Origin: a virus | Virus record (IMG/VR): IMGVR_UViG_3300042896_000579 | Location: 1-23,697 of that record | Strand: one strand, 5' to 3' | DNA length: 23,697 bases | Part shown: in pieces, positions 5,528-23,673 of the stretch | Numbering within the stretch: the first letter of the stretch is position 1 | How the letters are laid out: every line of letters starts with the position of its first letter | Made by a program: the position numbers and the translations under genes | The notes under the pieces: model-generated | The model's input: only the letters and a program-made list of their open reading frames with translations | The model's database searches: none | Told to the model about the DNA's origin: nothing

Positions 5528-5765
5528 CATTGCCATTAGGCTTTATAAATTGTAGTAAAATGTCTTTAATATCTTTTATATCTGTTTTTAATGTTTCTAA
5601 TTCTGATTTAACATTACTCAGATCTTCCGTAATATTATTTATTTGTATATTTTTTTTCTTATTTAATTTACGTTGTTCTAGAGCAGATAAATCTGAATTT
5701 AGAACTGCTTTACTGGATAGGTCTTTGACCCATCCAGGAGTATCTTTGATTTTTAATCTTTCCAT
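5523..5765 (-). CDS. Small coiled-coil late protein
   Basis: The 80-residue protein starts at ATG 5765-5763 and overlaps the TAA of the preceding structural gene by one base. Residues 1-30 (IKDTPGWVKDLSSKAVLNSD) look like a short folded or binding head. They are followed by a strongly basic linker (KLNKKKN at about 34-40) and a heptad-like helix from about 44 to 73 (EDLSNVKSELETLKTDIKDI), so oligomerisation by coiled coil is likely. Short proteins with a comparable head and an N-terminal GAVLN-type stretch occur in structural blocks of T4-like aquatic phages, but I cannot name a characterised homologue. Its placement between peripheral baseplate proteins and the tail fibre gene suggests a connector or fibre-assembly helper. 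That role is inference. Confidence 0.8.
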   Translation of the reverse strand: MERLKIKDTPGWVKDLSSKAVLNSDLSALEQRKLNKKKNIQINNITEDLSNVKSELETLKTDIKDIKDILLQFIKPNGNA

Positions 5766-7234
5766 TATACAGTAGCAATAGCTCTTAAATTTTTAATAGT
5801 AGGAACTTTCGTTGAATCATTAGAATAAAATACAACTTTGATAGCTAATTGGTTAAACGTTTCGTAACCAATTCCATTTACGCCAGTATATGTTATATTT
5901 AGGTTCTCATAAGTTTCTTCAACATAATCCGAAGATAATAATGCTGGAGTTGCTAGTGATTTTTTAGTCATTAAATGCCAATTAGCATCAGCAAATACAA
6001 TACTTGTATCGTATCTATTTAAAATTCGATAGAATACTTCAATTTCAGTTCCTACTGGTTTATTAACATCAATATAAACTGTGATACCATCAGCATCAAA
6101 CCCTTCATTTAATGTTACAGGTTTAGTTCTATATTTAGCGAAAGCTAATCCATTAGGCGTTAATTCTGATTCAGATATTTCAGTTGAATATGCATCTATG
6201 TAATTATTAATAAGAGCAATACCCGTTGCCTCCAAATCAACAATAGGAGTTAAATTTGGGTCAGTATTTGTTAATGCTAATGTAATTGGAACGCCATTAA
6301 CTGAATTTGCCGTAGAGCGAGATGGTAGAACTACATCGCTATTTGGAAATATAGTAATATTAGTATCATTAAGAGAATTGGAATTTCTAATAGTTGCAGT
6401 AGAATTACTGATATATGAAACTTCTTTTACTTGCGACGTTGCTGCTGCGAAATGTAATATATCATAACCAAAATCATACTCAATTCTTTTGGAATCAAGA
6501 TATAAATTTTTAGTTCCAACGTCAAATATAGCTTGTCTTAATATAAAACACAAATCTTTAGTTGGATCAATAACCCAAGATTCGCCTTGCCCAGAATAAA
6601 TAAAATCGCCAAGATATGGGTTAGTTACAATAATGGATGAATTTAACGTTGCTTTACCATTTTCACTAACAAAAACTTCATATGTTGAAGAATTGGTTTT
6701 TAGTGTAAAGCAGTAATATCCAGGAGTAAGGAAAATAGGAAAATCGAATTTAAATAATCTTTCTGAACCTTGCCCTGATGCTCCTGGAATCCAATCTTGA
6801 GTTGGTCTTGTTTGTTCTGGATACGCTGTCACAATAGATAATGGAATCTGTTCTCCCGGAATCCCATTAACTAACGGTCTTACATCAAGGGTTATAGGAG
6901 AAATACTATCTTCTTTTGTTGTAAAGATTGAAATTGACGAAATATACAACCCATTTGGGTTTTTAGTTTTATCAATTAAAAATGTTTGCCCAACATAATC
7001 ATTAAATTGAATTGTTGATAATGATTGTTGATGATTTACTTTATATGTATTTTCAAATTCAGTATCAAATAAACTTAACTCCCACTTGGAATTAAATATT
7101 TGCTGCGCCCAAAATTCAATTTCCTCTGGGTAATATTTTATTTTTCCCGTAGGATATTTTCTATTTTGTATATATGTAGAATTAGTAAATTTATTACTAA
7201 CATACGTTCTAATTAATCCAATATCTAATGCCAT
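5765..7234 (-). CDS. Virion structural protein, resembles the C-terminal part of DUF4815-type proteins
   Basis: The 489-residue protein starts at ATG 7234-7232 with AAGGG about five bases upstream. It has a short N-terminal segment (about 1-40) and then a beta-rich domain containing ISSISIFTTKEDSISPITLDVRPLVNGIPG (about 97-127). Further on come PNGLAFAKYRTKPVTLNEGFDADGITVYIDV (about 364-394) and a C-terminal VFYSNDSTKVPTIKNLRAIA. I recognise these blocks (a recurring phrase about strain/range of parameters and GFDAxxLxVYLxxxKPxGTxIxVYYK) from the C-terminal regions of very large DUF4815-containing structural proteins of marine T4-like phages. Here they form a separate gene 30 bases after the 2171-residue DUF4815 protein. 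The likely role is a peripheral baseplate or fibre-attachment protein working beside its upstream neighbour. No membrane segment, signal peptide or catalytic motif is visible. Confidence 0.75.
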   Translation of the reverse strand: MALDIGLIRTYVSNKFTNSTYIQNRKYPTGKIKYYPEEIEFWAQQIFNSKWELSLFDTEFENTYKVNHQQSLSTIQFNDYVGQTFLIDKTKNPNGLYISSISIFTTKEDSISPITLDVRPLVNGIPGEQIPLSIVTAYPEQTRPTQDWIPGASGQGSERLFKFDFPIFLTPGYYCFTLKTNSSTYEVFVSENGKATLNSSIIVTNPYLGDFIYSGQGESWVIDPTKDLCFILRQAIFDVGTKNLYLDSKRIEYDFGYDILHFAAATSQVKEVSYISNSTATIRNSNSLNDTNITIFPNSDVVLPSRSTANSVNGVPITLALTNTDPNLTPIVDLEATGIALINNYIDAYSTEISESELTPNGLAFAKYRTKPVTLNEGFDADGITVYIDVNKPVGTEIEVFYRILNRYDTSIVFADANWHLMTKKSLATPALLSSDYVEETYENLNITYTGVNGIGYETFNQLAIKVVFYSNDSTKVPTIKNLRAIATV

Positions 7235-7264
7235 AAAACCCTTCTATTTTATTTTTGTAATGTA

Positions 7265-10200
7265 TTATTGAATTTTTTTTCTTAATTCAATTAATTTGGA
7301 ATTTTCTGTGTTATATATAGCCAGTGAAGTTGGGTCAGCCGCTGATGCAGCAGAAAGTTTTGAATTAATCAAATACACAAGGGTTTGTTGACTGTCGTAT
7401 TCAGCCTGTGCATTATTCTTACTTTCGGTTGTTCTGTCAGAATTTGCAGAAGTACTGGTATATCCATTATTTTGTAATTTAGCGACGGCTTCTGCGCTTC
7501 TAGCATTTTTATCTTGACCAACAATTTGCGTAAAAATTGATACAATTGTAGTAGGAGAACCGACTACAGAATAGTTATCGGTTCTATAAGTCGTAGTTGT
7601 TGTAGTAACTGTAGAAGTTTCTGTTACATTTACTGCAGATATACGCTTTAGTCCAGAAAATATTATTTCCCCAGAAAACTCATATGCATTAGAGGATCCA
7701 TTTTCGACTGTTTCTACAGTAGCTGCAGCGCTTGCACCTGCAAAACCGGCAACCCATGAACCTCCAGGGTCAGTTGCGGGGGAAGTCCCTTGTAATGATT
7801 TCAAGGTGCCCTGTGTAATGCCGAATGCATAAGACAAATCCACATCATCTGCTGCAGAAACAGCAAAATTAACCGCACCTGATGTTGCATTCGGGTGTTT
7901 AGCGAATGAACCATAAACTGCAAATTTAGCTGAATTTGGAGTAGTTTCTATTAAAGTAAAAGTTGCATACGTATCTGGGGTCGCGCTAACTTGTGAAATA
8001 CTAATAGCTGGTTTCCAATGAGCAGCAGGAAGACCAGTTTGCTCTGCAACATATGTTTGCTGAACTGTCTGATAAGAAAGAGAAAACAGTTGCGGAATAT
8101 CAACTGTTTTATTTGTTAAAACCGCAACTGACCGTAGCGCGTTTGCCCACGGTCCAGTTGTTCCTGATGCATACGCAGTAGTTAAATAGACTCGAGTAGT
8201 TGTATCCACAGAAACGGCAGAAGCTCCACTAAGAATAACTGTTTGAGGAGTATTCCAATTATTTGGCGTAAATGTTAAAATTTCATCTGATGCAACTGCA
8301 ACTGCAGGGTTACTAAAAGATACAACAGCCCATATATTCTCTAATGGTTTAGCGCTTAAACGAACACGTATGGATGCCGTAATTGAGGTTGCATTACAAA
8401 CAGTAACTTCTGTAGGTCCGTCATATACAGCTTCTCCTCCGGTATCAACTAAAGGAGAAGCTACAGGCGTCTTATTAACTTTATTTTTTAAACTAACCGA
8501 CGCAGTTTTTCCGTTCCACGCGCTATCTGACGATGTTGAAGATGCATTAATATTATAGTCAAAAATATCTTGCAGTAAAGTTCCATTGTAACCATTTCCT
8601 TTAAATCTCAGTATTTGCGGATATGTGTAATTTCCTGAAGTAAAGGTAAGAGAGCCATCTAAAACGGTTCCGCCTCCATTGACTAATGTGGAATTAAACG
8701 ATACAGTTACATCGTTAGTCGGAGCTGGTCCTGCTAACCAAACTGGAATAGCTGATTCTACGCCTTCTGTTGTGGAGAAAATGTCTATACTACCTAGCCA
8801 ACTATAGTCAACATAATTTGAAAAAACAATAGATCGGGGCAATGCAGGTAATGAACTGGCGGATACAGTAAACTGGAGGGATGCGCTTATATTATTCCAT
8901 ACCGGATTAGCAGAAGTAAGCGTAACCGTGAACCCGCATGTTCCTGCTGCTTCTCCTGTTGCAGTAAACGTATGACTATTTGCTGGGCTAGTAAACACTG
9001 TTGTCGTTGAGGAGTTAATTCGTGCTTTATCTGAACCCGATGAATATGTTAAGATAAGCGTTAATGGATACACATCAGGAACAACTTTGTTATCTAATCC
9101 CATATCTCCGCTCCATCGTATATCAAAACTTACTTCCTCGCCGACGGACATAGTAGGTTTAACTGCAGTCATAGATAATGTTGGACTAGGATATTGCGGA
9201 GGTACGACTACTGGTGCATAAATATTATAGGGTATTAATTTGGTTGTAGCAACACCATATACAAATGATGTTGATTTCCAATATCCAAATGGTTTTTCTC
9301 CAGTAAAATTATATACACCATCATCTGAGGCTGCATAAAATTCAATATATGTTGGTAACTTATTATCGCCAACGTTACTTTTTGCACCCAAATCATACGA
9401 AAAACTAATTGTTTGTGGAGTTTTCCAATTTGATCCAGTAAATGTTAATGACGAAGTTCCAGATGAAATCGTTGTATTTGCTGATTTATCGCTTGATGCA
9501 TTAGTTACATATGTAACAGTGACATTACATGGATCTCCATATGCGTCTACTGGTTGTGCGCTCAAATATACAGGAATAGATAAAATACCAGTTTTTGTCT
9601 CTGTATAGTTTTGTTTATAATCGTTAGCCAAATATTGTAATGAAGTTGGAACAACGATATACGAATCTTGTGCTGGAAGTTTTGGTTTTAATGGCGCAAC
9701 AACTTTAGAAATGTATGGATATCTAATCGAATCAGTAACTTTTTGTGTAAATGTCGTTTTAGTATAAAAAGTTGCTCGAGCCATTGATATCGCATTTTCA
9801 GTATCATAATGTGGAGTGTCGCACACCATAATTATTAATTCGCCTGAAATAAAGCTTACAAGGCTATTTGGTAATTGTAATGTTCCAGAACACGTTCCTG
9901 CTCTATTTGAATACAATTGTGTTGCTTGGTGTGGCGTTGTGTATAACGAAATATTTGCTGTATTTGATACAGTAGCGCTATCAATAGTAATAGAAATTGG
10001 GGCAGATGTATCATAACCTTTTCCTGGATTTACAATTGTTATTGCGTCAATAGAACCAGCAACAACTGACAAATTAAACTGTGCTTGCGTAGTTGACGCA
10101 GTATTACTGGTTGCATTTGCTGTAGAAGCATAGCCCGTTCCTGGATATGTAATTTGTGCTGACGTTATTATCCCGATAGGATTTTCGTCTGGAGTCACGT

Positions 10201-13200
10201 ATGCATTCACTAAATGCCCGTTAACATAAACAAACATTTTAGTAAGTGGAGATAATCCAGTTGCAGTAAATTTGATTGGAATAGATCTAGATTTCGGCAT
10301 AATATTATTTGTTAATGCATTCACTTCAGTATTTTTTGTTGAAGTTACTATTGCAGTTCCAACACTATAATTAACATTATCATATTTTACTTTAGCGGGA
10401 TTAGCAGCTTTATCAACAACATATTGATGAGATGCATAAAAACTACTCCATTCATTAAATACTAATCCTGGAACTTGATTTGCCTTTGAAATTGCCGCAG
10501 TATCATCGCTTACATTATTAACAACTGGAGCTAATTCTTCCGTCCAAACATCAGATTGCGGACTAAGTTTTAAATCTCCTTTATATGAGATAGCATCGAA
10601 TTGATTAATTTTAACTGAACTTGTTGCTTGATCTTGAGATGCAATAACAGATTCAGTATAGTTAAATCTAACTAAATTATTTTCAATAATTAAAGAATTA
10701 TCCCCTAAATCGTCAACAGAAGCAGTAACATTTAATTTTTTAGTTGAAAACGATGGTCTAGCAAGATTATTTTCTAAATCAATAGAAATATTTTTATTGT
10801 TATCTGATAAATCAACAATAGTAAAATTAGTAAACGGTTCAACTATAAATCCATTTTTTAATCTAGGGCCAGATTGATCAATAATATTTGTAGTTAATGT
10901 TGCTTTTTCACCGAGACTTAATGCTGTATAATATTCAACATTTGATATCCGTGCATCTAAATTGCCAATATCATCCATAGTATATCTGCGATGTTTAGCA
11001 TAATTTATATGAATTGCTTGTTCATCTGATGAATATGGATCAAATAACACAGTAGCAATAGTCATTGTGTTAGGTTCATCCTTTGGCGTTACATAATTTC
11101 TATATGAAGATTCACCTTTAATCCATTTTAATTTTCCATCTTGCCCGAGAATTAATTTATCAATTCTTCCTAGATAATATGACATATCATAATATAATCT
11201 AGAATCAGTTATTGATGTTGGAATATTGTATGAATCATAAGTAATGATACTTGAGCCTGTATTTGCATTAGCCCTGCGAGGTCTAAAATCAACATAATCT
11301 CTTAATGCATACGAAACATTATTAATCTGTATTTTAGGAATATCTTTATATGTTGTTGGGTATGAATCATATGCAATATATTGACCGCTTGTTGAGTGCG
11401 AATAATAATCAAACAATACAAAAACTTTACCAACATCTAGATATGATAGAGCAGCAATTGTTCCGTGATCATAAATATGTTCTTGTTGGCCATTATTTTT
11501 TGCAAATTTAGATGAAACGTCTTCAAGTTGATCCCAATATGGAGAATCTATTGTTGGGCTATTTCCTGAATTGGAATTGCTAAGAGAATAATATAATTGA
11601 TCTCCAAATTTAACTATATCAAAAAAACTATACGAAGTTCCTATAGCCCAAGTTCCAATATATGTCGATGACGCATCAGGAGATTTGTATATTGACTTAA
11701 AATTGACAATATCTGAATATCCAATACTTGATGGATAAGTAGTTACATTTACTGTCGCAACTGCATTTGTGTGTAAAGTTTTTGTTTTTTTCTGCGCATC
11801 AGTGTACAATAAAGTATATTTAACGTCAATTTGGCCTGTATAACCATTATCAAAAGTAAATCTAGCAATATATTCGTTACTTGCTTCTTCAATAGCTATT
11901 GTAACATTTGCTAAATCTACATATTCTCCAGGAACATATCCAGCATTTGTAGTTTTGGCTACGATAATAAAATTATCATTTTTAACTTCAGTAGATAAAC
12001 CAGTAGAGGTTCCTGTTAAAAATTGTTTTGTTAATGCTCCAGTTGCAATTGTTGCAACATTTGCAGTCACAGAAATTGTATCAAACGAATCAAGCGTAAT
12101 TGATACATTAGTAAATGACGCAACATCAGTATATGGTAATTTAAAAATTAATTTATCAAAACTTGTATCTAAGATAACTGTATTATTTGATGAATCTAAT
12201 ATTGTATTTGCAACAAATCCAGTATTTCCTGATGTGCGAACAGATTTAATTCCAGTTATTTGTTGTTGAGATACTCCAATATTATACAAATATAAATCAT
12301 ATTCATTATTTGTTGTGTAATTAATATTTCTAACATACGCATAACCTAAAAACGAATTCGCTCCAGCAGTAGATGTTGTATTTGCATGTAATTCTATTTT
12401 TGCGCCTACTGTTGGAATGGGTAAATTCCCAGCAACATCCGAAACTCGTATGCTATTACCATAATATATGTTTGTTATATTATTATTTGAATATGCTACA
12501 TCTCTTGCTTTATCTATTGTAATATTAGTTGGGAATCTTCCGCCATATGGATATCCATTAATATATGCTTTGCCGCCAGTAATATTGCAATTTAATTTAT
12601 CTGTAAAATCGCTAAAATTAGATTCATAGAATGTAATATTAAATGGAGTAACAATAAAATTACCAGCATGATCATATAATTGTTTCGCTAATACATCTTC
12701 TAATCCACCTAAAGATGGATCTGTATTATCAGAAATAACAATACCATCTTTAATTCTTAATAATTCAATAAATTTATTAGTCGTTAATGTTGTTTGGTCG
12801 ATTGTTCCATAGACTAATGGTTTCGATACAAGATTTAAATATGCTTTATATCTATCAGCTCCTGGAGCTGTATAATTATATGACCCTTGAGCCGGATCAA
12901 GTAATGATGTATCATCAACGAAATCAACAATTGTTTCTACTACATCAAACCCAATAACACAACTTGGATATTGGGTTTTTGCATTAGGAACAATTGATTG
13001 AGATAGAGCTTTTACAAACATATTATTTGTAAAATAGATACCCTCTGCGAAATTTACTTCAAATACTGTTCTTGATGCGTATTTTGTAATCCTAAGAGGA
13101 ACTGTATTATAATTATTTTGTAATAATTTATCGACGGATACAACTGAATTAGAACCAACGTCAGTAATAATATAACTTATTGTATAATTATCAATAGCTG

Positions 13201-13780
13201 CTGTAATAACATCGCCAACTGCAATTGCAGATGAATTAATTGTAAATTGATTTGAATTTTTTACACCAGAGCAATTGTTAATAGTTACAACTGTATCTTG
13301 ATTTAATGTTGCAGTATAATCGGATGTAATCGCGCTATTATTTAAATAGCTATATGCGAAATCTTTAGTAGAGAAAATATGTAACGTTTCTCCGGATTGG
13401 TAATTAATTACTCCGTTAATTACAGGCTTTACTACAATATAATAATTTAGAATATCAGCAGAAGATACTAAACTGACGCATCTTGACGTTTCACCAACAA
13501 CATACATTCCGGTAAAAAATTCAATATCAGTAGAAATTGTTCCTGTTGGAGATAGATCTAATGATTTTGTATTAGTACCCGTAGAATATTTACCTCCACT
13601 AACTTTTGCGCCATCAGATAATACAAATTTACCGAATTTTCCAATTTGATCTTGTAAAATTGTTTGTAATTGAGTTAATTCTCTTGCTTGAACTGCAACT
13701 CCAGGTTTAAATAGAATTCTATGAAAATTCTTATCTTCATTGAAATCGTCGTAGAATGGGTTTGTGTTGAAATTTAGCAT
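7265..13780 (-). CDS. Giant DUF4815-type baseplate/tail structural protein with Ig-like C-terminal half
   Basis: The 2171-residue protein spans more than a quarter of the window. The N-terminus (NPFYDDFNEDKNFHRILF, then VQARELTQLQTILQDQIGKFG) is the hallmark I associate with DUF4815, a family of large structural proteins in T4-like aquatic phages. The beta-rich N-terminal half continues to about residue 1190. It holds a tryptophan-rich module (TWAIGTSYSFFDIVKFGDQL...YW, about 703-753) and the phrase YVDFRPRR. The second half has two GxGY-type repeats (about 1205 and 1250), an Ig-like segment (about 1530-1643), and three LTFT-x-x-N-[WY]-x-x-PQ repeats (about 1440, 1706 and 1831). A Thr run lies near 2050 and a charged, probably coiled C-terminus at 2100-2171. 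The start is ATG 13780-13778 with AAGG rather far upstream. The likely role is a peripheral baseplate protein that displays domains to the environment. It occupies the gp9/gp10 zone but I would not equate it with either. Confidence 0.85.
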   Translation of the reverse strand: MLNFNTNPFYDDFNEDKNFHRILFKPGVAVQARELTQLQTILQDQIGKFGKFVLSDGAKVSGGKYSTGTNTKSLDLSPTGTISTDIEFFTGMYVVGETSRCVSLVSSADILNYYIVVKPVINGVINYQSGETLHIFSTKDFAYSYLNNSAITSDYTATLNQDTVVTINNCSGVKNSNQFTINSSAIAVGDVITAAIDNYTISYIITDVGSNSVVSVDKLLQNNYNTVPLRITKYASRTVFEVNFAEGIYFTNNMFVKALSQSIVPNAKTQYPSCVIGFDVVETIVDFVDDTSLLDPAQGSYNYTAPGADRYKAYLNLVSKPLVYGTIDQTTLTTNKFIELLRIKDGIVISDNTDPSLGGLEDVLAKQLYDHAGNFIVTPFNITFYESNFSDFTDKLNCNITGGKAYINGYPYGGRFPTNITIDKARDVAYSNNNITNIYYGNSIRVSDVAGNLPIPTVGAKIELHANTTSTAGANSFLGYAYVRNINYTTNNEYDLYLYNIGVSQQQITGIKSVRTSGNTGFVANTILDSSNNTVILDTSFDKLIFKLPYTDVASFTNVSITLDSFDTISVTANVATIATGALTKQFLTGTSTGLSTEVKNDNFIIVAKTTNAGYVPGEYVDLANVTIAIEEASNEYIARFTFDNGYTGQIDVKYTLLYTDAQKKTKTLHTNAVATVNVTTYPSSIGYSDIVNFKSIYKSPDASSTYIGTWAIGTSYSFFDIVKFGDQLYYSLSNSNSGNSPTIDSPYWDQLEDVSSKFAKNNGQQEHIYDHGTIAALSYLDVGKVFVLFDYYSHSTSGQYIAYDSYPTTYKDIPKIQINNVSYALRDYVDFRPRRANANTGSSIITYDSYNIPTSITDSRLYYDMSYYLGRIDKLILGQDGKLKWIKGESSYRNYVTPKDEPNTMTIATVLFDPYSSDEQAIHINYAKHRRYTMDDIGNLDARISNVEYYTALSLGEKATLTTNIIDQSGPRLKNGFIVEPFTNFTIVDLSDNNKNISIDLENNLARPSFSTKKLNVTASVDDLGDNSLIIENNLVRFNYTESVIASQDQATSSVKINQFDAISYKGDLKLSPQSDVWTEELAPVVNNVSDDTAAISKANQVPGLVFNEWSSFYASHQYVVDKAANPAKVKYDNVNYSVGTAIVTSTKNTEVNALTNNIMPKSRSIPIKFTATGLSPLTKMFVYVNGHLVNAYVTPDENPIGIITSAQITYPGTGYASTANATSNTASTTQAQFNLSVVAGSIDAITIVNPGKGYDTSAPISITIDSATVSNTANISLYTTPHQATQLYSNRAGTCSGTLQLPNSLVSFISGELIIMVCDTPHYDTENAISMARATFYTKTTFTQKVTDSIRYPYISKVVAPLKPKLPAQDSYIVVPTSLQYLANDYKQNYTETKTGILSIPVYLSAQPVDAYGDPCNVTVTYVTNASSDKSANTTISSGTSSLTFTGSNWKTPQTISFSYDLGAKSNVGDNKLPTYIEFYAASDDGVYNFTGEKPFGYWKSTSFVYGVATTKLIPYNIYAPVVVPPQYPSPTLSMTAVKPTMSVGEEVSFDIRWSGDMGLDNKVVPDVYPLTLILTYSSGSDKARINSSTTTVFTSPANSHTFTATGEAAGTCGFTVTLTSANPVWNNISASLQFTVSASSLPALPRSIVFSNYVDYSWLGSIDIFSTTEGVESAIPVWLAGPAPTNDVTVSFNSTLVNGGGTVLDGSLTFTSGNYTYPQILRFKGNGYNGTLLQDIFDYNINASSTSSDSAWNGKTASVSLKNKVNKTPVASPLVDTGGEAVYDGPTEVTVCNATSITASIRVRLSAKPLENIWAVVSFSNPAVAVASDEILTFTPNNWNTPQTVILSGASAVSVDTTTRVYLTTAYASGTTGPWANALRSVAVLTNKTVDIPQLFSLSYQTVQQTYVAEQTGLPAAHWKPAISISQVSATPDTYATFTLIETTPNSAKFAVYGSFAKHPNATSGAVNFAVSAADDVDLSYAFGITQGTLKSLQGTSPATDPGGSWVAGFAGASAAATVETVENGSSNAYEFSGEIIFSGLKRISAVNVTETSTVTTTTTTYRTDNYSVVGSPTTIVSIFTQIVGQDKNARSAEAVAKLQNNGYTSTSANSDRTTESKNNAQAEYDSQQTLVYLINSKLSAASAADPTSLAIYNTENSKLIELRKKIQ

Positions 13781-13793
13781 CTGTTTTTAAACC

Positions 13794-15170
13794 TTAATAA
13801 TTAAGTGTTAATCTAAATTGTTCTAGTCCAGTAGAAGTTCTTTGAATTTTCTTTCTGTTTTCGATATATATAATATTTCCGGAGAATGGTACTATTTGTT
13901 CTTTTTGTTGTTGTAACAATAATCTAGATGTATTTGAGATTGAGCCATATAAACCTTGATATACGCTTACTGTTCCTAACGTATTTATAACATATAATAA
14001 ATTATTTGTTGCATCAAAATTTAATACTCTACCAGAATATGTTGGGTTATTTTGATCACCTTGATAAATTATTTCGTCCTGTTGGTATACACCAGATCCA
14101 GGAGATACAACAATATCATCAGTTGTTTTATATATCGTTGAATTGGCAAATGCCATAGAAGATCCGACAGTTATTTCTGGATTAGAAATTAATCCGATTT
14201 GCCTATAATCAATATCAGTCGGTAATGTTCCAGTTTCAGACCCATTGAATTCTGCAGAAATCATTACATTTTTACATCCTAATTCTGCTAATAGATTATG
14301 TCCATGACCGCCAATAGGAGAAATTTCTGCAGTTAATATTGCCCCATTTCCAGAATAACCCAAACCCATAGATGAAATAACGTTTGCTGTAGCATAAGTA
14401 TAACCATATCCAGTATTTGACATTAAAATTTGAGTAACAGTATTTCCGGAAATAATCGCTTTTGCTTCAGCTCCAGTTCCATCTCCGTCTATTTGTATAG
14501 TAGTCGTTCTATTAAATCCATTATCATCTGAATAATTGGTTCCGCCATTATACACATTAATAACAGAAACTTCGCCTGCTCCAACAGTATTATTTAAAAT
14601 TGATGGTCTATGTGTAGTTACAGGAAGAGGAATCCAATTTTCATCAAAGAATTTTAGTTTAGCTCCAGCATCAATTGTAAATAGATATTTCCATTTATAT
14701 CCATCGCTTGTTATAATAATATTATCAATAAAATTTGTGGTAAAATCAATTAATGGCTGTTCAGTTGATACAACTCCACTATCGTTAACGCTATTTGCTC
14801 CATTATATAAACATTTAAATACCTGATCGTACGAATTTCTAACATAATAATTAATATTTGCAACTCGTTCTGATGAGTATTGATTGTATATTATACCTGA
14901 CACCCAATCAATTCTGTTTATAACAGGGCAGATATCATTTGAATTTATTTTTTTAAGCGCTATTAAATTTTTATTAACAGTTTTTAAATAATAATCCGAA
15001 TTTTCAGGTAATGGCGGGCTTGTTTCATTATCCCACTCTTCAACTTTAGCAATAAAACAATATAAATTTAAAAATTCATCTCCTGAATTTTTAAGTAATA
15101 AATTAAGAGAATAGTAATATTTTAAAATTTCTTGAGAAAAACCAGAATAAGGGATTAAACCTTGACTCAT
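13794..15170 (-). CDS. 8: Baseplate wedge protein gp8-like
   Basis: The 458-residue protein starts at ATG 15170-15168, two bases after the TAA of the preceding gene. The region around YVRNSYDQVFKCLYN (about 108-122), the stretch YKWKYLFTIDAGAKLKFF (about 158-175) and its place after gp6 and gp7-position genes fit the T4 gp8 wedge family. Gp8 dimers bind the arms of the wedge and link gp7 to the outer baseplate. T4 gp8 is about 330 residues. The extra length here comes from an inserted middle part with YNGGTNYSDDNG plus GDGTGAEAKAI (about 204-238) and SNTGYGYTYATANVI (about 248-262). These are copies of the Gly/Tyr repeat that also occurs in the gp6, gp7-position and 2171-residue proteins. The C-terminus is beta-rich (TGLEQFRLTLNY). 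Identity as gp8 rests on motif resemblance plus gene order. Confidence 0.85.
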   Translation of the reverse strand: MSQGLIPYSGFSQEILKYYYSLNLLLKNSGDEFLNLYCFIAKVEEWDNETSPPLPENSDYYLKTVNKNLIALKKINSNDICPVINRIDWVSGIIYNQYSSERVANINYYVRNSYDQVFKCLYNGANSVNDSGVVSTEQPLIDFTTNFIDNIIITSDGYKWKYLFTIDAGAKLKFFDENWIPLPVTTHRPSILNNTVGAGEVSVINVYNGGTNYSDDNGFNRTTTIQIDGDGTGAEAKAIISGNTVTQILMSNTGYGYTYATANVISSMGLGYSGNGAILTAEISPIGGHGHNLLAELGCKNVMISAEFNGSETGTLPTDIDYRQIGLISNPEITVGSSMAFANSTIYKTTDDIVVSPGSGVYQQDEIIYQGDQNNPTYSGRVLNFDATNNLLYVINTLGTVSVYQGLYGSISNTSRLLLQQQKEQIVPFSGNIIYIENRKKIQRTSTGLEQFRLTLNY

Positions 15171-15172
15171 AT

Positions 15173-17869
15173 TTACACCGTTGTATATGTTGTAATAGTA
15201 TTAGATGACAATTCTTTTGTTACTGTAATCTGTGTTGGGTATAAAGAATTTCCGCTTTGGTATAGTTGATTTGTAAAATATATTATATTATCAACTATAT
15301 TAAGAATTTCTTCATCAGCAGTATTTGGAGTGGAAATAGAATCACCAATATTAATAAATGTATTCATTGAATATTTATTACTGTTATAATTATTATCATT
15401 AGTTATAATTATTGTATTTCCTTGCGTATATCCACTATAAACATTTGGGAATTTATATTGTATATGATTTTCCAAAAATAATACATTGTTTGAAACGTCA
15501 AGGCTGGAAATAGTTGAGTATACATTAAAATTCGTTGGTCCAATAATGCTAATATTAGTATTAACTGTAAATATTTGATCAATATCAAGACTAGTGTAAA
15601 TTGATATTGTATTAGAAAAACAAGAATTTGCGTTTTGTATCAACAATGAACTGACGTTTGAAATTGTGTTTCCTGTTACTATTACAGTATTTGTTGTCAT
15701 ATTATATTGTGAGTTTGATTTTAATAGATTTCTAGTTACAATTCTAGTTCCAATTGGATGTATTAAATTCTCTATGACAGTTTTATATGAATTATAATCC
15801 TTTTCTACGGATAAAATATATGTAGATAAATTATACATATCACTTTGTAGAACAGAATGAGCAGAAAGCTGTCCATCTGTTGTAACATATCTGCCTGCAT
15901 CTTCAATTAATCCATTTGCAAACACGGCAGTTGCCTTTGCTGTTCCATCGCCATATAATTTTACGCCATTAGTAAAAGTTGCATCCGTATAATTTGACTG
16001 AATAGTTAAATCTGCTATAACAGAACTACTTGCAGTATCATAAACAAATAACGCATTAGCAGTAGATAAATTTCCTCTAAAATCATATATCCTAATAGAA
16101 AATAATTGATAGTCTGTAAGCGGATCAAAATAGAGAGATTTAAGAGAATCAATTTTTCCAATAAACCCTGGAGTAATATATGTTCCTTGATACGCTACCA
16201 TTGACTCGGTTGATTTAATTTGATCTATATTATTTCCAGTAATAACAATATCTTGCATTCTTAATGATACATTAGGAGTGGAAATATAATCTTCTCCATT
16301 GTCAGTTAATGCAATTTTAGTTATAGCTCCGATTTTATCAGTTTCTATTTTATATTCGACGCCAGTACCCAATATTGCAGGAATTATTAACTGTGCATTT
16401 GAACCTGTATTTGAAGTAACAGTCACTGTTGGTAAATTTGCATTGTTATATCCCATTCCGCCCAAACCATATAAATTTGCAGTGGAATAATATTCAGCAG
16501 ATAGAATTGCACCGTTTGCATTAGTGGTATTAATTCTTGCATAGGCAAAATTTCCATCTCCACCTAAGATTGTTATAATATCATTAGATAAATAACCGGA
16601 TCCAGGATTAATTACTTCTATTGGAGCAAGAATCCCTAAATCATGTAAATGTTGTTTATAATGATTAACAGTATTTGCCGTAAACAACGAATCAAATGTT
16701 AAAGATGGTTGAACATCATATCCGCCACCGCCATTTCTAACTAATACTGCTTTAATTGGATATGCGGGAAATGTAATAAACGAAAAACAATTTTTTAATT
16801 GTGTATTTGCATTAGCTGTAATAGAAAAATTATATGTATTGCCTAATGTAATATTTAAATTATCTTCAATACAATCGTTTGATATATAAGCTACATTTGC
16901 TTCTTGTTCAGATTCATTAAGAATTGATATTATACAATTAGCAGTTGTATGTAAAATTCCATGTGTAGTAACATCAATAGACGAATTTGAAAATAATCTA
17001 TATCCATACCCCCCTTTTGTTATTATTACATTTTGAATTTGTCCAGTTGTTACTTCTGAAACAACTGCCGATGCTCCAACAGGAGAAACTGCAGTATTAC
17101 TAAACCCGCCCGATAAAACTACTGGATCTCCTATTTTATAATAAGATCCTCTTCGTGATGGTTCAATATTAATATTAGAAATTGACCCAATAATTTTTGA
17201 TTCTAATAAAACTGACTGTATTGGTGGAGTTTTTTCGTATGGTACATATTCGCCATTTAAAAAATAAACAGGTTTATTATCATAATCTAATATACGAATA
17301 GCTTCGCCTGTAGTAAATAACCGTTCAATATCAGTTAAATAAATCTGAATAAATTTACCGTTAATTTTACTTTTTTCTATAATTCCAATAGATTTAGATG
17401 TTACTCCAAATACTTTAAAATTATCAATATGCAGAAAATTTGTATCAAGAGATTTAATTTTTATTGATTTTGGGACAATCCATTTACCATCGCTTGGTCT
17501 TAATACATATTGCCCAGTAGCAACAACTTCTGCGTTAACATTATATAAAGCTCTAAATAAAAATTTAAATGAATCTGGAACGCCTTTGGCTTTATATAAT
17601 TCTTTTACAATTTTTATTAATTTTACTTTATCTGCAGCAATAGTATCAATATCGGGAAAATAGGGAAGAAAATCTTGCGCATAATATGCATAAAATTCGT
17701 TAAATCCTGAATCAATATCTAATTTATCTCCTAATCCATAAATATCATATGTATCATCAAACCATTCATAGTATGCATTAAAAAATTGAATAAATCTAGA
17801 ATATGCGGGATCATCCCTGATATACGCAGGAAGTTTTTGATCAAAGATTGTAGAGTATCTATATGACAT
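15173..17869 (-). CDS. 7: Baseplate wedge protein in the gp7 position
   Basis: The 898-residue protein begins at ATG 17869-17867, overlapping the gp6 TAA by one base. The N-terminal 120 residues are helical and conserved-looking: LPAYIRDDPAYSRFIQFFNAYYEWF (about 13-37), then VKELYKAKGVPDSFKFLFRALYN (about 87-110). This opening is typical of wedge or tail proteins in marine T4-like phages. The remainder is beta-rich and contains at least four Gly/Tyr repeats: TKGGYGYRL near 280, VRNGGGGYDVQPSL near 378, NPGSGYLSNDIITILGGDG near 418 and TDNGEDYISTPNVSL near 520. T4 gp7 is about 1030 residues and lies between gp6 and gp8, exactly as here, and it bridges the wedge core to its periphery. Sequence resemblance to T4 gp7 itself is not obvious to me, so the symbol reflects position. 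An alternative is an unrelated structural protein in the same slot. Confidence 0.65.
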   Translation of the reverse strand: MSYRYSTIFDQKLPAYIRDDPAYSRFIQFFNAYYEWFDDTYDIYGLGDKLDIDSGFNEFYAYYAQDFLPYFPDIDTIAADKVKLIKIVKELYKAKGVPDSFKFLFRALYNVNAEVVATGQYVLRPSDGKWIVPKSIKIKSLDTNFLHIDNFKVFGVTSKSIGIIEKSKINGKFIQIYLTDIERLFTTGEAIRILDYDNKPVYFLNGEYVPYEKTPPIQSVLLESKIIGSISNINIEPSRRGSYYKIGDPVVLSGGFSNTAVSPVGASAVVSEVTTGQIQNVIITKGGYGYRLFSNSSIDVTTHGILHTTANCIISILNESEQEANVAYISNDCIEDNLNITLGNTYNFSITANANTQLKNCFSFITFPAYPIKAVLVRNGGGGYDVQPSLTFDSLFTANTVNHYKQHLHDLGILAPIEVINPGSGYLSNDIITILGGDGNFAYARINTTNANGAILSAEYYSTANLYGLGGMGYNNANLPTVTVTSNTGSNAQLIIPAILGTGVEYKIETDKIGAITKIALTDNGEDYISTPNVSLRMQDIVITGNNIDQIKSTESMVAYQGTYITPGFIGKIDSLKSLYFDPLTDYQLFSIRIYDFRGNLSTANALFVYDTASSSVIADLTIQSNYTDATFTNGVKLYGDGTAKATAVFANGLIEDAGRYVTTDGQLSAHSVLQSDMYNLSTYILSVEKDYNSYKTVIENLIHPIGTRIVTRNLLKSNSQYNMTTNTVIVTGNTISNVSSLLIQNANSCFSNTISIYTSLDIDQIFTVNTNISIIGPTNFNVYSTISSLDVSNNVLFLENHIQYKFPNVYSGYTQGNTIIITNDNNYNSNKYSMNTFINIGDSISTPNTADEEILNIVDNIIYFTNQLYQSGNSLYPTQITVTKELSSNTITTYTTV

Positions 17870-19917
17870 TATGATTTAGGTATTATATTAATAGTTATTG
17901 ACGTGTCATCCATAATATCTAATGATAACATTTTATCTTTTGTCGATGTAAAAATTGTAGATTCTGGAGTTACAGTTATAGATAAAGTTCCTAATACATT
18001 ATTTATATTGTATGGAGTAAAGTTGGTTAATTTAACAGTTCCTGCCAAATAATGGATTTCTCCGATATTAGAATTTATTATAGTTTTAATATTATTTGTA
18101 TAATAAAAACTTCTAAGTTTAACCGTATTTCCGCTTAATACAGGAACAGCAACTGCATTATTTCCACCCCCTCCAGTTATAACTGCAACAGCTTGCGTAT
18201 AATTCAGCCCATAATCGACAATATTAATTGCTGATATTGCGCCATTAGTTACTTCAGCAGTTGCAATTGCCCCAGTTCCATCTCCGTAAATAGTAACTGT
18301 TGGGATAGCAGTAAACCCGCTTCCAGCGCTAATAATTTGAATCGATTCTATTGTGTTAAAAATTGACGGAGATTCTTCAATTTGAACATTTTCGATTATT
18401 TGGTCATTTGATCCCAAGTAATCAAAATAACTACTAACCAATGTTCCTTTTTTTATTGGGGTTTGAAAATCAAATGTATGCGTATTTACTGTTTTGAATA
18501 CTGGATTAAACCTTTTTTGTAAAGAAATTGTAGATTCAGATGTAATAATAGATGCATCTGTTGATTTAATTGTGGTAATTAAATCTGGTAATACAAATAC
18601 TGAATCAAATGAATCTAATATTCTATTACAAAAATCCATTATTGCCAACTTTAATAAACTTTGTAATTGGGTTGCATCAAATATTGATTTCGCAGAATCA
18701 AAATAAATGTTACTAGAAAGTTTTACAAAAGTAAAGTCAACATCAACAATTTCTGGAATTACAGTAATTACGCTAAATGGTTTAATATATTCGTTAAGTA
18801 ATCTATATTTCTGGAATGCAGATAAATTAAATCCACCACTGGGTTTAATACATATAAACATTTTTCCGTATTGTGGGGGAGTCATATCTTCTCCGCCCCA
18901 GACATTTACTGCTTGAATAGGTATAATTGTATTATCGCGTTTTAATAATTCAAGATAATCAGTTTTTGATACGGCTCTATTTTGTGACGCATATGCTTTT
19001 GGGGCTGAATATTTAATAGATTGTATTGATTCTTTTCCGCGACCGCCATTTGCAGGTTCATAATTATTTGTTCCATTAATAATAACGCCAGAGTATGTTC
19101 CAATTTTATCCATTAGCGTGAATTTATATGCTCCATTTGGAGCCGCGCCTTTGGTTACAATATAATCTACGACAATAACGTTTCCAGTTTTTAATGATGA
19201 ACCTAAAACGCCGTCGCCAAAATATATTTCATATAATCCAGATAGACCTTCTTGTAAGAAATACACAGTTGACGTATTATCTAACGTTAAATGCTTAGAA
19301 GCTAATTCAAATTTCGTAAAAGTCGTCGATTGAGCAGAATCATACACTAAAACTTGTAGAGTTGTCGTATCAATATTTGCATCAGGAAGAGTAAAAGTTG
19401 AAGATTCATTTTGTAAATTATTTACGGAATATGTATATCTTACAGGTTGCCCTTGATATATTTCAACATTATAAAATTGTGCAATATTATTACTGGTTGA
19501 TACTGATAATGATTCTAAAGTAACAAATGGATATTGTACTCCATCAATTGATTGGGACGAGAATTTAGTATATTTTGGAATAGTAAAATTTGGAGCAGTA
19601 GTTCCATTAAATTTTATTTCTATAGTAGCTTTTGATGCTTTTGCAGATGATGGTGTATAATTTAATAATTTAGCATGAGATATAACTGAACCACGTTTTA
19701 CTGCAGTATCTAAAAATGCTTCATTGGCGATCATGTTTAGGTAATATGCATTATAGTGAGTATTGTACGCTAATAAATCTAATACAGTTGAAATAACAGA
19801 ACTTTCAAAGTCGTAATCATTAAATTTATCTTGGCCGCGTAAATAATCTTTAAGATTGCGTTTAATGTTATCAAAATCTAATTCTGCAATATTTATTGAT
19901 GAATTGGCACTAGCCAT
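17869..19917 (-). CDS. 6: Baseplate wedge protein gp6 (gpJ-like)
   Basis: The 682-residue protein is close in length to T4 gp6 (about 660). The N-terminus DFDNIKRNLKDYLRGQDKFNDYDFESS, then LAYNTHYNAYYLNMIANEAFLDTA (residues 14-72), is the classic gp6/gpJ opening. KRGSVISHAKLLNYTP follows, and the middle has NGGRGKESIQSIKYSAPKAYASQNRAVSKTDY, the gpJ-type core. Gp6 dimers form the inner ring around the hub and control the change of the baseplate from hexagon to star. Residues about 526-591 carry an added Gly/Tyr repeat pair (SAGSGFTAIPTVTIYGDGTGAIATAEV, then DYGLNYTQAVAVITGGGG) shared with neighbouring wedge proteins. The start is ATG 19917-19915 with AGGGGA close upstream, and a late-promoter-like AATAAATA precedes it in a 33-base gap. 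The identification is firm. Confidence 0.92.
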   Translation of the reverse strand: MASANSSINIAELDFDNIKRNLKDYLRGQDKFNDYDFESSVISTVLDLLAYNTHYNAYYLNMIANEAFLDTAVKRGSVISHAKLLNYTPSSAKASKATIEIKFNGTTAPNFTIPKYTKFSSQSIDGVQYPFVTLESLSVSTSNNIAQFYNVEIYQGQPVRYTYSVNNLQNESSTFTLPDANIDTTTLQVLVYDSAQSTTFTKFELASKHLTLDNTSTVYFLQEGLSGLYEIYFGDGVLGSSLKTGNVIVVDYIVTKGAAPNGAYKFTLMDKIGTYSGVIINGTNNYEPANGGRGKESIQSIKYSAPKAYASQNRAVSKTDYLELLKRDNTIIPIQAVNVWGGEDMTPPQYGKMFICIKPSGGFNLSAFQKYRLLNEYIKPFSVITVIPEIVDVDFTFVKLSSNIYFDSAKSIFDATQLQSLLKLAIMDFCNRILDSFDSVFVLPDLITTIKSTDASIITSESTISLQKRFNPVFKTVNTHTFDFQTPIKKGTLVSSYFDYLGSNDQIIENVQIEESPSIFNTIESIQIISAGSGFTAIPTVTIYGDGTGAIATAEVTNGAISAINIVDYGLNYTQAVAVITGGGGNNAVAVPVLSGNTVKLRSFYYTNNIKTIINSNIGEIHYLAGTVKLTNFTPYNINNVLGTLSITVTPESTIFTSTKDKMLSLDIMDDTSITINIIPKS

Positions 19918-22676: not shown

Positions 22677-23673
22677 AATATGTTCTCATTAAATATTTTA
22701 ATTCTTGTTCAAGTTGCGATACATATTCTTTTCGAATTAAATTTATTGTACGTTTATTTTCATTTAATTCTTGCTCGTAATCGTAAATTGATAATCTTTC
22801 TTTTGTTACTGAAATTTCTATATTATCAGCTTGTAGCGTTTCATTTGCAAAATTAAATATACTATTTGCATATCCATTTACTCCTCCATTATATGCCTTT
22901 TCATCAATAAATAGTTTTTCTGCAGTAGATTTACCTGTTAAAATATCAGTAGTAGTAGTAATTGCCCTATATGAAAACGGTTCTTTATTTGTTGTAACCA
23001 GTGTATATTCTATTGCATTATTATATGTTTTCCAATAATCTGCGTTAGAATAGGTAATACCTGTAATATTATTTGCTATATTATCTTGTTTGCAAATATA
23101 AATTGTATTATTATTTTTTACAACATCATCTCGATTATATTCCGTATCATTTTGCCAAACTCCTTTCCAATAAACTCCATCTAGAATTCTAGTCCAATAT
23201 TTTTTGGCCAAATCAGCTTTAAATGTAGTTGGATTGTGATCAACATTGCAAATAAACGCAGTATTACTTGTTATTACAGTGTTGCCTGCATAATATCGAT
23301 TAACTATATCAATAATAGCATATTCTGATGAACTCCATTCCCCTCTCCATGTTGAGTTTGCCCATTGATTTATGCTATTGGCTTCAGCTTTATATTTATC
23401 CATAAGATATTTATTAAATACTGGATAATCTAAAGTAAAATCAAAAAATGGATTAATTGTATCATTTGCCAACATCACTATCCAGTGACGTTCAGGATCC
23501 CCATAATATTTTGATGCAATAATTTCTGGAGTATCGCCTTCTTGAATATCATATGGGTAATAAAGAGATAATTTATTAGAATACTTTTCTCTAATTGCAA
23601 TTCTAGTGACTATATCAGTTACAATTTTACTATTAATTGTAAGTTTAGGATATTTTGAAAAAAATGAAGACAT
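22669..23673 (-). CDS. 53: Baseplate wedge protein gp53 with inserted tryptophan-rich modules
   Basis: The 334-residue protein starts at ATG 23673-23671 with a very strong AAGGGGGG site seven bases upstream. The N-terminal part, YYPYDIQEGDTPEIIASKYYGDPERHWIVMLAND (about 38-71), is the gp53 signature with its LysM-like GDTPExIAxKYYG. The C-terminal helix YDYEQELNENKRTINLIRKEYVSQLEQELKYLM (about 297-329) is also typical. Gp53 clamps neighbouring wedges together during baseplate assembly. T4 gp53 is only about 196 residues. The excess is an insert at about 105-225 holding two W-x-G-x-W modules: WRGEWSSSEYAIIDIV...YW (about 109-160) and WKGVWQNDTEYNRDDVV...YW (about 169-214). These resemble small carbohydrate-binding or surface modules found in phage structural proteins. 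Function of the insert is unknown. The gene is complete, and 24 bases of upstream DNA remain in the window. Confidence 0.88.
   Translation of the reverse strand: MSSFFSKYPKLTINSKIVTDIVTRIAIREKYSNKLSLYYPYDIQEGDTPEIIASKYYGDPERHWIVMLANDTINPFFDFTLDYPVFNKYLMDKYKAEANSINQWANSTWRGEWSSSEYAIIDIVNRYYAGNTVITSNTAFICNVDHNPTTFKADLAKKYWTRILDGVYWKGVWQNDTEYNRDDVVKNNNTIYICKQDNIANNITGITYSNADYWKTYNNAIEYTLVTTNKEPFSYRAITTTTDILTGKSTAEKLFIDEKAYNGGVNGYANSIFNFANETLQADNIEISVTKERLSIYDYEQELNENKRTINLIRKEYVSQLEQELKYLMRTYYG

Follow-up and report, generated by a model that had tools for sequence, protein, structure and literature searches.

What is the glycine- and tyrosine-rich beta repeat that recurs in neighbouring baseplate proteins of a T4-like phage, and how did it come to be there? 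This question is raised by a stretch of 23,697 nucleotides from IMG/VR virus record IMGVR_UViG_3300042896_000579 (positions 1 to 23,697; here called the window), which is part of the tail module of a T4-like myovirus, with all features given below, in window coordinates, lying on the minus strand. The original prediction had noted the repeat in the baseplate wedge proteins gp6 and gp8 and in the protein encoded at the position of gp7, and this repeat is real: the three proteins contain two, two and about six units, respectively, of one family. Two further units, beyond the region with which the original prediction dealt, are present in the protein at the position of gp10. We consider it probable that two such units make up a barrel that folds like domain I of the T4 sheath protein gp18 and probably shares its ancestry, i.e. 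a self-contained insertion domain that is likely to sit on the outside of the baseplate and to serve in decoration or docking.

Repeat units and predicted barrel

The unit comprises about 37 residues with the rough consensus G-x-I-x-x-I-x-[IV]-x-[NT]-x-G-x-[GN]-Y-x(4)-P-x-[VI]-x-I-x-G-D-G-T-G-A-x-A-x-A. In gp6, unit 1 (residues 521-558; 18244-18357; 61.9 bits) and unit 2 (residues 559-597; 18127-18243; 53.4 bits) are together predicted to form one barrel, which is an insertion relative to shorter gp6 homologues. The two units of gp8 are found at residues 199-242 (14445-14576; 37.3 bits; strands 201-211, 223-229 and 232-241) and 243-284 (14319-14444; 34.8 bits; strands 244-255, 260-266 and 275-283). 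Directly C-terminal of them lies an SPIGGHG motif (residues 284-290; 14301-14321), and in a 45-row alignment of barrel-bearing gp8 proteins the G288 of this S-P-x-G-G-H-G sequence is invariant, with P285, H289 and G290 being nearly so.

In the gp7-position protein one strong unit (residues 412-445) is accompanied by weaker, divergent ones (276-299, 372-391, 470-494 and 514-534) and by a GDGT half-unit near residues 625-651 (KLYGDGTAKATAVFANGLI; 15917-15997). Three putative barrels can be delineated: the first (units at about 228-272 and 273-312; 16934-17188) includes the repeat unit at 276-299 and is conserved in 12 relatives, the second (about 370-411 and 412-450; 16520-16762) includes the strong unit with its 37.9 bits, and the third, a divergent one (about 451-501 and 502-545; 16235-16519), has weak matches to a hidden Markov model (HMM) at 470-494 and 514-534 and is conserved in 11 relatives. 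With 2-5 bits the weaker units are statistically insufficient alone, and their support comes from this conservation in 11-12 relatives. The gp10-position protein, a DUF4815 protein, contains two units (residues about 1203-1241 and 1242-1290; 9911-10174) with 16.8 bits at 1242-1265.

That these copies form one family across different proteins is borne out by an HMM made from the gp6 units alone, which recovers the copies in gp8 (19.2 bits), the gp7-position protein (13.3 bits) and the gp10-position protein (11.2 bits) above all of 2,211 reversed or shuffled decoy sequences (best decoy, 10.3 bits). Profile-profile comparison (hhalign) matches the gp6 block to the gp8 block with 98.1%, to the gp10-position block with 96.1% and, in the gp7-position protein, to residues 405-470 with 91.4% and to residues 580-670 around the half-unit with 89.5%, whereas control regions remain at or below 1%, save for one control that itself contains a half-unit. 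Among the sequences of solved structures, the repeat profile matched only BURRH (TALE-like) repeats, and these matches were judged spurious, as they consist of many short and individually insignificant pieces.

When modelled on its own with AlphaFold2 (window 18100-18396; 89 rows), the gp6 block is predicted to fold into six strands, with a predicted local distance difference test (pLDDT) score of 97-98 in its core, and the model of gp8 (45 homologues; pLDDT 84) has three strands per unit over residues 201-283. A unit of about 37 residues would thus be made up of three strands, and two tandem units would form a six-stranded beta-barrel of about 75 residues. Among solved structures the gp6 block finds its best match in residues 99-188 of 3fo8, with Z 6.0 (VIA), a root-mean-square deviation (rmsd) of 2.9 over 73 residues and 22% identity. 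The first five ranks are all taken by domain I of T4-type gp18, and the next unrelated fold, at rank 6, has Z 2.8. Residues 202-284 of the gp8 model likewise match this part of 3fo8 (Z 6.1). Immunoglobulin (Ig) folds appear among the structural matches of the gp6 block only in a low-Z row, and no Ig family was matched in Pfam scans.

Domain I of gp18 as precedent and probable relative

Domain I of T4 gp18, a six-stranded barrel with a helix that is inserted in domain II, protrudes from the tail, makes no contacts between subunits and binds the baseplate as well as the retracted long tail fibres; the gp18 mutations G106S, S175F and A178V inhibit fibre retraction (PMC3004832). With this domain (residues 98-188, PF22639, PDB 3FO8/3FOA) the block shares the six-stranded barrel (which here is predicted), two half-units with G-x-x-[GN]-Y, the location in a loop of a host domain and the occurrence in tail proteins of T4-like phages. 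It differs in its hosts, which here are gp6, gp8 and the gp7-position and gp10-position/DUF4815 proteins instead of domain II of the sheath, and in that the GDGTGAxAxA half is present, that it often occurs in tandem and that it stays under the Pfam cut-off. Being predicted as self-contained and insertable in loops, the block would allow the host protein to keep its fold, and with domain I of gp18 as a precedent, a surface-decorating or docking function is the most economical reading. On the exterior of the baseplate, the barrel could offer a surface to which the retracted fibres or the first sheath disc dock, or one that touches the cell surface weakly. Its surface exposure is inferred by analogy. 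The wedge proteins may have an exposed surface in common, the original prediction having envisaged a common surface; for a docking or adhesion role as such, the case is a weak one.

Adhesion to the host is the main alternative to docking, i.e. the block could be a receptor- or carbohydrate-binding module acting like the Ig-like domains and carbohydrate-binding modules of phage virions, a role with which its barrel fold is compatible. This would suit the occurrence of the block in fibres, tail tubes, glycan-binding lipoproteins of the SusD type and secreted proteins, and weak binding of surface carbohydrates has been proposed for Ig-like domains (PMC9230969, PMC8718954). Like the phage Ig-like domains (Big_1, Big_2, FN3), the block is a small, mobile all-beta domain found across unrelated structural proteins and bacterial surface proteins; unlike these, it is predicted to be a two-unit barrel, and its place is often within a loop and not at the C-terminal end. 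Since domain I of gp18 is reported to bind parts of the phage, i.e. the baseplate and the fibres, and not the host (PMC3004832), we regard adhesion as a serious but clearly less probable possibility.

Besides having a similar predicted fold, the block and domain I of gp18 are likely to be of common ancestry. T4 domain I can be read as two half-units with the motifs G-S-N-Y and G-K-N-Y in the register of the repeat, with the second motif not being kept in most T4 relatives. Searched with the Pfam model Gp18_dom_I at E<=1, 12 phage records gave T4 gp18 and six other places in five other phages, and all six non-sheath matches, the best of which comes from Stenotrophomonas phage BUCT608 and lies in its gp7-position protein (2.6e-6), overlap repeat units found with an independent profile; with random placement, and with two near-identical phages counted as one, the joint chance of this is about 1e-10. 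An HMM of gp18 domain I run over 1,042 other proteins yielded 25 matches above the best decoy (6.6 bits), all of them gp7-position proteins or repeat units, with BUCT608 in the lead. In the window itself the gp7-position protein reaches 6.7 bits with this HMM at residues 231-284, i.e. in putative barrel 1, which is about the top decoy score.

Several observations weigh against this kinship. Directly compared by hhalign, the profiles of the block and of gp18 domain I match with an insignificant 2.4-8.5%. The best non-sheath phage match to PF22639 (24.7 bits) is under the gathering cut-off of 27, and the copies in the window, including the gp6 block, have no PF22639 score at all. Foldseek places 3fo8 only at rank 5 for the gp6 block (E 0.95), and a Z of 6 falls short of what is regarded as secure. 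The block might then be an unrelated small beta-barrel, i.e. a widespread, unnamed repeat domain of bacteria and phages that has converged on the shape of gp18 domain I; besides the insignificant direct score, the middling Z for a kind of fold that is common and the fact that the blocks nearest to the consensus are bacterial could be taken in this sense. The coincidence of all six non-sheath Pfam matches with repeat units, the GxxY motif and strands being in register, the drop in Z immediately after the gp18 matches and the presence of the block in sheath proteins themselves speak against convergence, however, and make it unlikely in our view.

Insertion, inheritance and distribution

Relative to T4, the block is an insertion, just as had been predicted. 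The host proteins are homologous to T4 gp8 (PF09215, 1N7Z) and T4 gp6 (PF21379/PF21387), but at the site of the block of about 75-90 residues T4 gp8, from which the block is absent, has about 20 unrelated residues and T4 gp6 about 40. The gp6 block is cleanly inserted and about 80 residues long, and gp6 homologues of 604-617 residues are without it. When the block is left out in building the gp6 tree, its presence requires two changes, as compared with 16 for shuffled labels, and the gp6 of locus L148 (610 residues), which falls inside the block-bearing clade, is devoid of the block, with the flanks EES and GTLQTYY joined cleanly. As read from these sequences, the history of the gp6 block is one gain and one later loss, i.e. 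that in L148. The gp6 proteins of L148 and L163 form a natural pair without and with the block. Nearly all of the examined relatives of the cyanophage type have the gp8 block, which phages of Rhizobium, Sinorhizobium and Stenotrophomonas carry in a weaker form, and the gp10-position block was detected in the closest relatives only. The barrel probably dropped into loops of gp8 and of the gp7-position protein long ago and entered gp6 once, in an ancestor of this clade; in the closest relatives it probably also entered the gp10-position protein.

For the occurrence in adjacent genes, intragenomic recombination between wedge genes had been proposed, with gp6, gp7 and gp8 interlocking through common strands. 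The three proteins are indeed neighbours with a common repeat, and like units pair between gp6 and gp8 (44% identity for unit 1 with unit 1 and 39% for unit 2 with unit 2, versus 32-37% for the crossed pairs), which indicates that whole two-unit blocks moved, albeit long ago, so that a whole block may once have been transferred in this way. In the 23 phages with both proteins, however, the identity of gp6 and gp8 units is the same within a phage (0.451) as between phages (0.451; p=0.485), and there is no same-phage excess in a second gp6-gp8 comparison (p 0.943) or between gp6 and gp7 (p 0.96 and 1.00), the single marginal value being that for gp8 unit 1 and the gp7-position protein (p=0.045). 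Instead, the blocks cluster by host protein: the nearest neighbour is again a gp6 block for 26 of 30 gp6 blocks and again a gp8 block for all 111 gp8 blocks, and the protein label changes 23 times in the block tree, versus 153 times for shuffled labels. The copies are thus old and have been inherited in place. At the DNA level, the repeats shared by the genes are short (20-38 nucleotides, 63-90%), and nothing in them points to a recent duplication. Moreover, the module is present in many non-neighbouring proteins, and two units are predicted to form a six-stranded domain of their own, so the barrels would not join wedge proteins through common strands. Recombination between adjacent genes with interlocking of their products therefore appears very improbable.

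The module is not specific to the wedge, to which it had seemed confined, as its hosts overall include hub, gp6, gp7-position, gp8, gp10-position, neck/Hc2, sheath, tail-tube and fibre proteins as well as secreted bacterial proteins. Synechococcus phage ACG-2014d has 25 matches, which are spread over at least six reading frames and come mostly from a single protein of about 6,800 residues; the hosts in this phage are the giant gp7-position protein, two proteins of 1,154 and 2,059 residues, gp8, gp14/Hc2 and a frame of 1,008 residues that bears the annotation of a wedge subunit. Fibres, hub-lysozymes and wedge proteins are among the predicted viral structures that have the same fold. From the giant virus Sylvanvirus, two predicted proteins (BFVD A0A3G5AH06 and A0A3G5AH46) match the barrel fold with E 9e-6 and 2e-5, respectively. 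The sheath of Stenotrophomonas phage Ps15 (L213:3146-5119) is without domain I at the T4 site and has a clear two-unit block in another loop (residues 240-315).

In bacterial and archaeal genomes the block was found in 71 contigs from many phyla, and whole two-unit blocks in bacteria are inserted within a lambda-type tail-tube domain, within tail sheaths and within SusD and DUF2589. Examples, each split by one two-unit block, are tail-tube and tail-sheath proteins (L067:4641-5387, L094:4626-5393, L126:4536-6044 and L079:4437-5954), SusD-like proteins (L086 and L125) and DUF2589 proteins (L058 and L118). With relatives in so many other phage and bacterial proteins, the barrel behaves as a plug-in surface module. 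The bacterial copies were fetched with the consensus, which biases the ranking of nearest copies, and the donor of the gp6 block can therefore not be named. No model in the Pfam and NCBIfam libraries covers the block, and a literature search, beyond whose reach most subscription papers lay, gave no description of the repeat, nor of domain I outside gp18.

That the repeat is an artefact, due to chance or to the composition of Gly/Thr/Ala-rich beta proteins, can practically be dismissed, because, low in complexity as the repeat is and although an artificial consensus query matched nothing with the BLAST filter on, an iterated profile finds 536 viral and 272 bacterial units that exceed 10 bits and none in reversed or locally shuffled versions of the two sets, and the predicted fold is a confident one. 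The consensus query (tblastn against phages and plasmids) probably remained empty because of the low-complexity filter; a natural gp6 block used as a query did find matches.

Host proteins, annotation and wider meaning

The tail module of the window comprises the genes for gp53, a tail protein, gp5, gp25, gp6, the gp7-position protein, gp8 and the DUF4815 (gp10-position) protein of 2,171 residues. The wedge proteins gp6 and gp8 are true homologues of their T4 counterparts: gp6 (682 residues; 17869-19917) matches Pfam Gp6-like_1st (6.4e-19), PHROG 219 (4e-151), the T4 gp6 helical-domain profile PF21379 (68 bits, cut-off 27) and 5hx2_D (7.9e-45), and gp8 (458 residues; 13794-15170) matches the Phage-Gp8 profile PF09215 (2.7e-8; 33.7 bits, above the cut-off of 25), with its AlphaFold2 model resembling T4 gp8 (1n7z) with Z 22.6. 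The gp7-position protein (898 residues; 15173-17869) is recognized mainly via its N-terminal third, where residues 6-307 match PHROG wedge subunits (PHROG 17744, baseplate wedge, 7.6e-25), and via its gene position, i.e. synteny; against the T4 gp7 profile PF23786 it scores just 12.4 bits (cut-off 27). Residues 351-423 of gp8 (window 13902-14120) match residues 768-844 of T4 gp7 (5iv5_BJ; Z 8.5, rmsd 1.7 over 68 residues), which suggests, on the basis of the model, a second, different beta domain common to gp7 and gp8. The DUF4815 protein and the next open reading frame (489 residues; both within window 5765-13780) match separate parts of PHROG 358 (584-1388 and 1836-2054 of its 2,056 positions), so the gene, undivided in relatives, appears to be split in the window. 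Residues 173-200 of gp53 (window 23074-23157) weakly match CBM_5_12 (20.2 bits, cut-off 26.2).

The block also affects annotation. It is contained in PHROG 460 ('head closure Hc2'), 701, 2885, 708, 1922 and 5342, and since the matches of gp6 and gp8 to these groups are carried by the block, the names should not be transferred. The gp7-position protein of Pelagibacter phage HTVC008M (L057:11772-14822; record 33435-36485) is annotated as 'head closure Hc2', a name that is probably module-borne as well, because PHROG 460 also matches gp6 and gp8 of the window through the repeat block.

Overall, a repeat of which myoviruses of the cyanophage type have many copies has now been assigned a fold and a relative. 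One module links baseplate, neck and sheath proteins and accounts for spurious labels such as 'head closure Hc2'. Speculatively, and with rather more doubt than confidence on our part, domain I of gp18 could be one exemplar of a very large, unnamed family of plug-in barrels in phage tails and secreted bacterial proteins, which in T4-like phages would cover the sheath, the baseplate, the neck and the fibres and give them a common surface for docking in fibre retraction and in the contact between baseplate and sheath. The question of what domain I of gp18 does becomes testable in natural gain and loss pairs, for example in gp6 proteins that have or lack the block.

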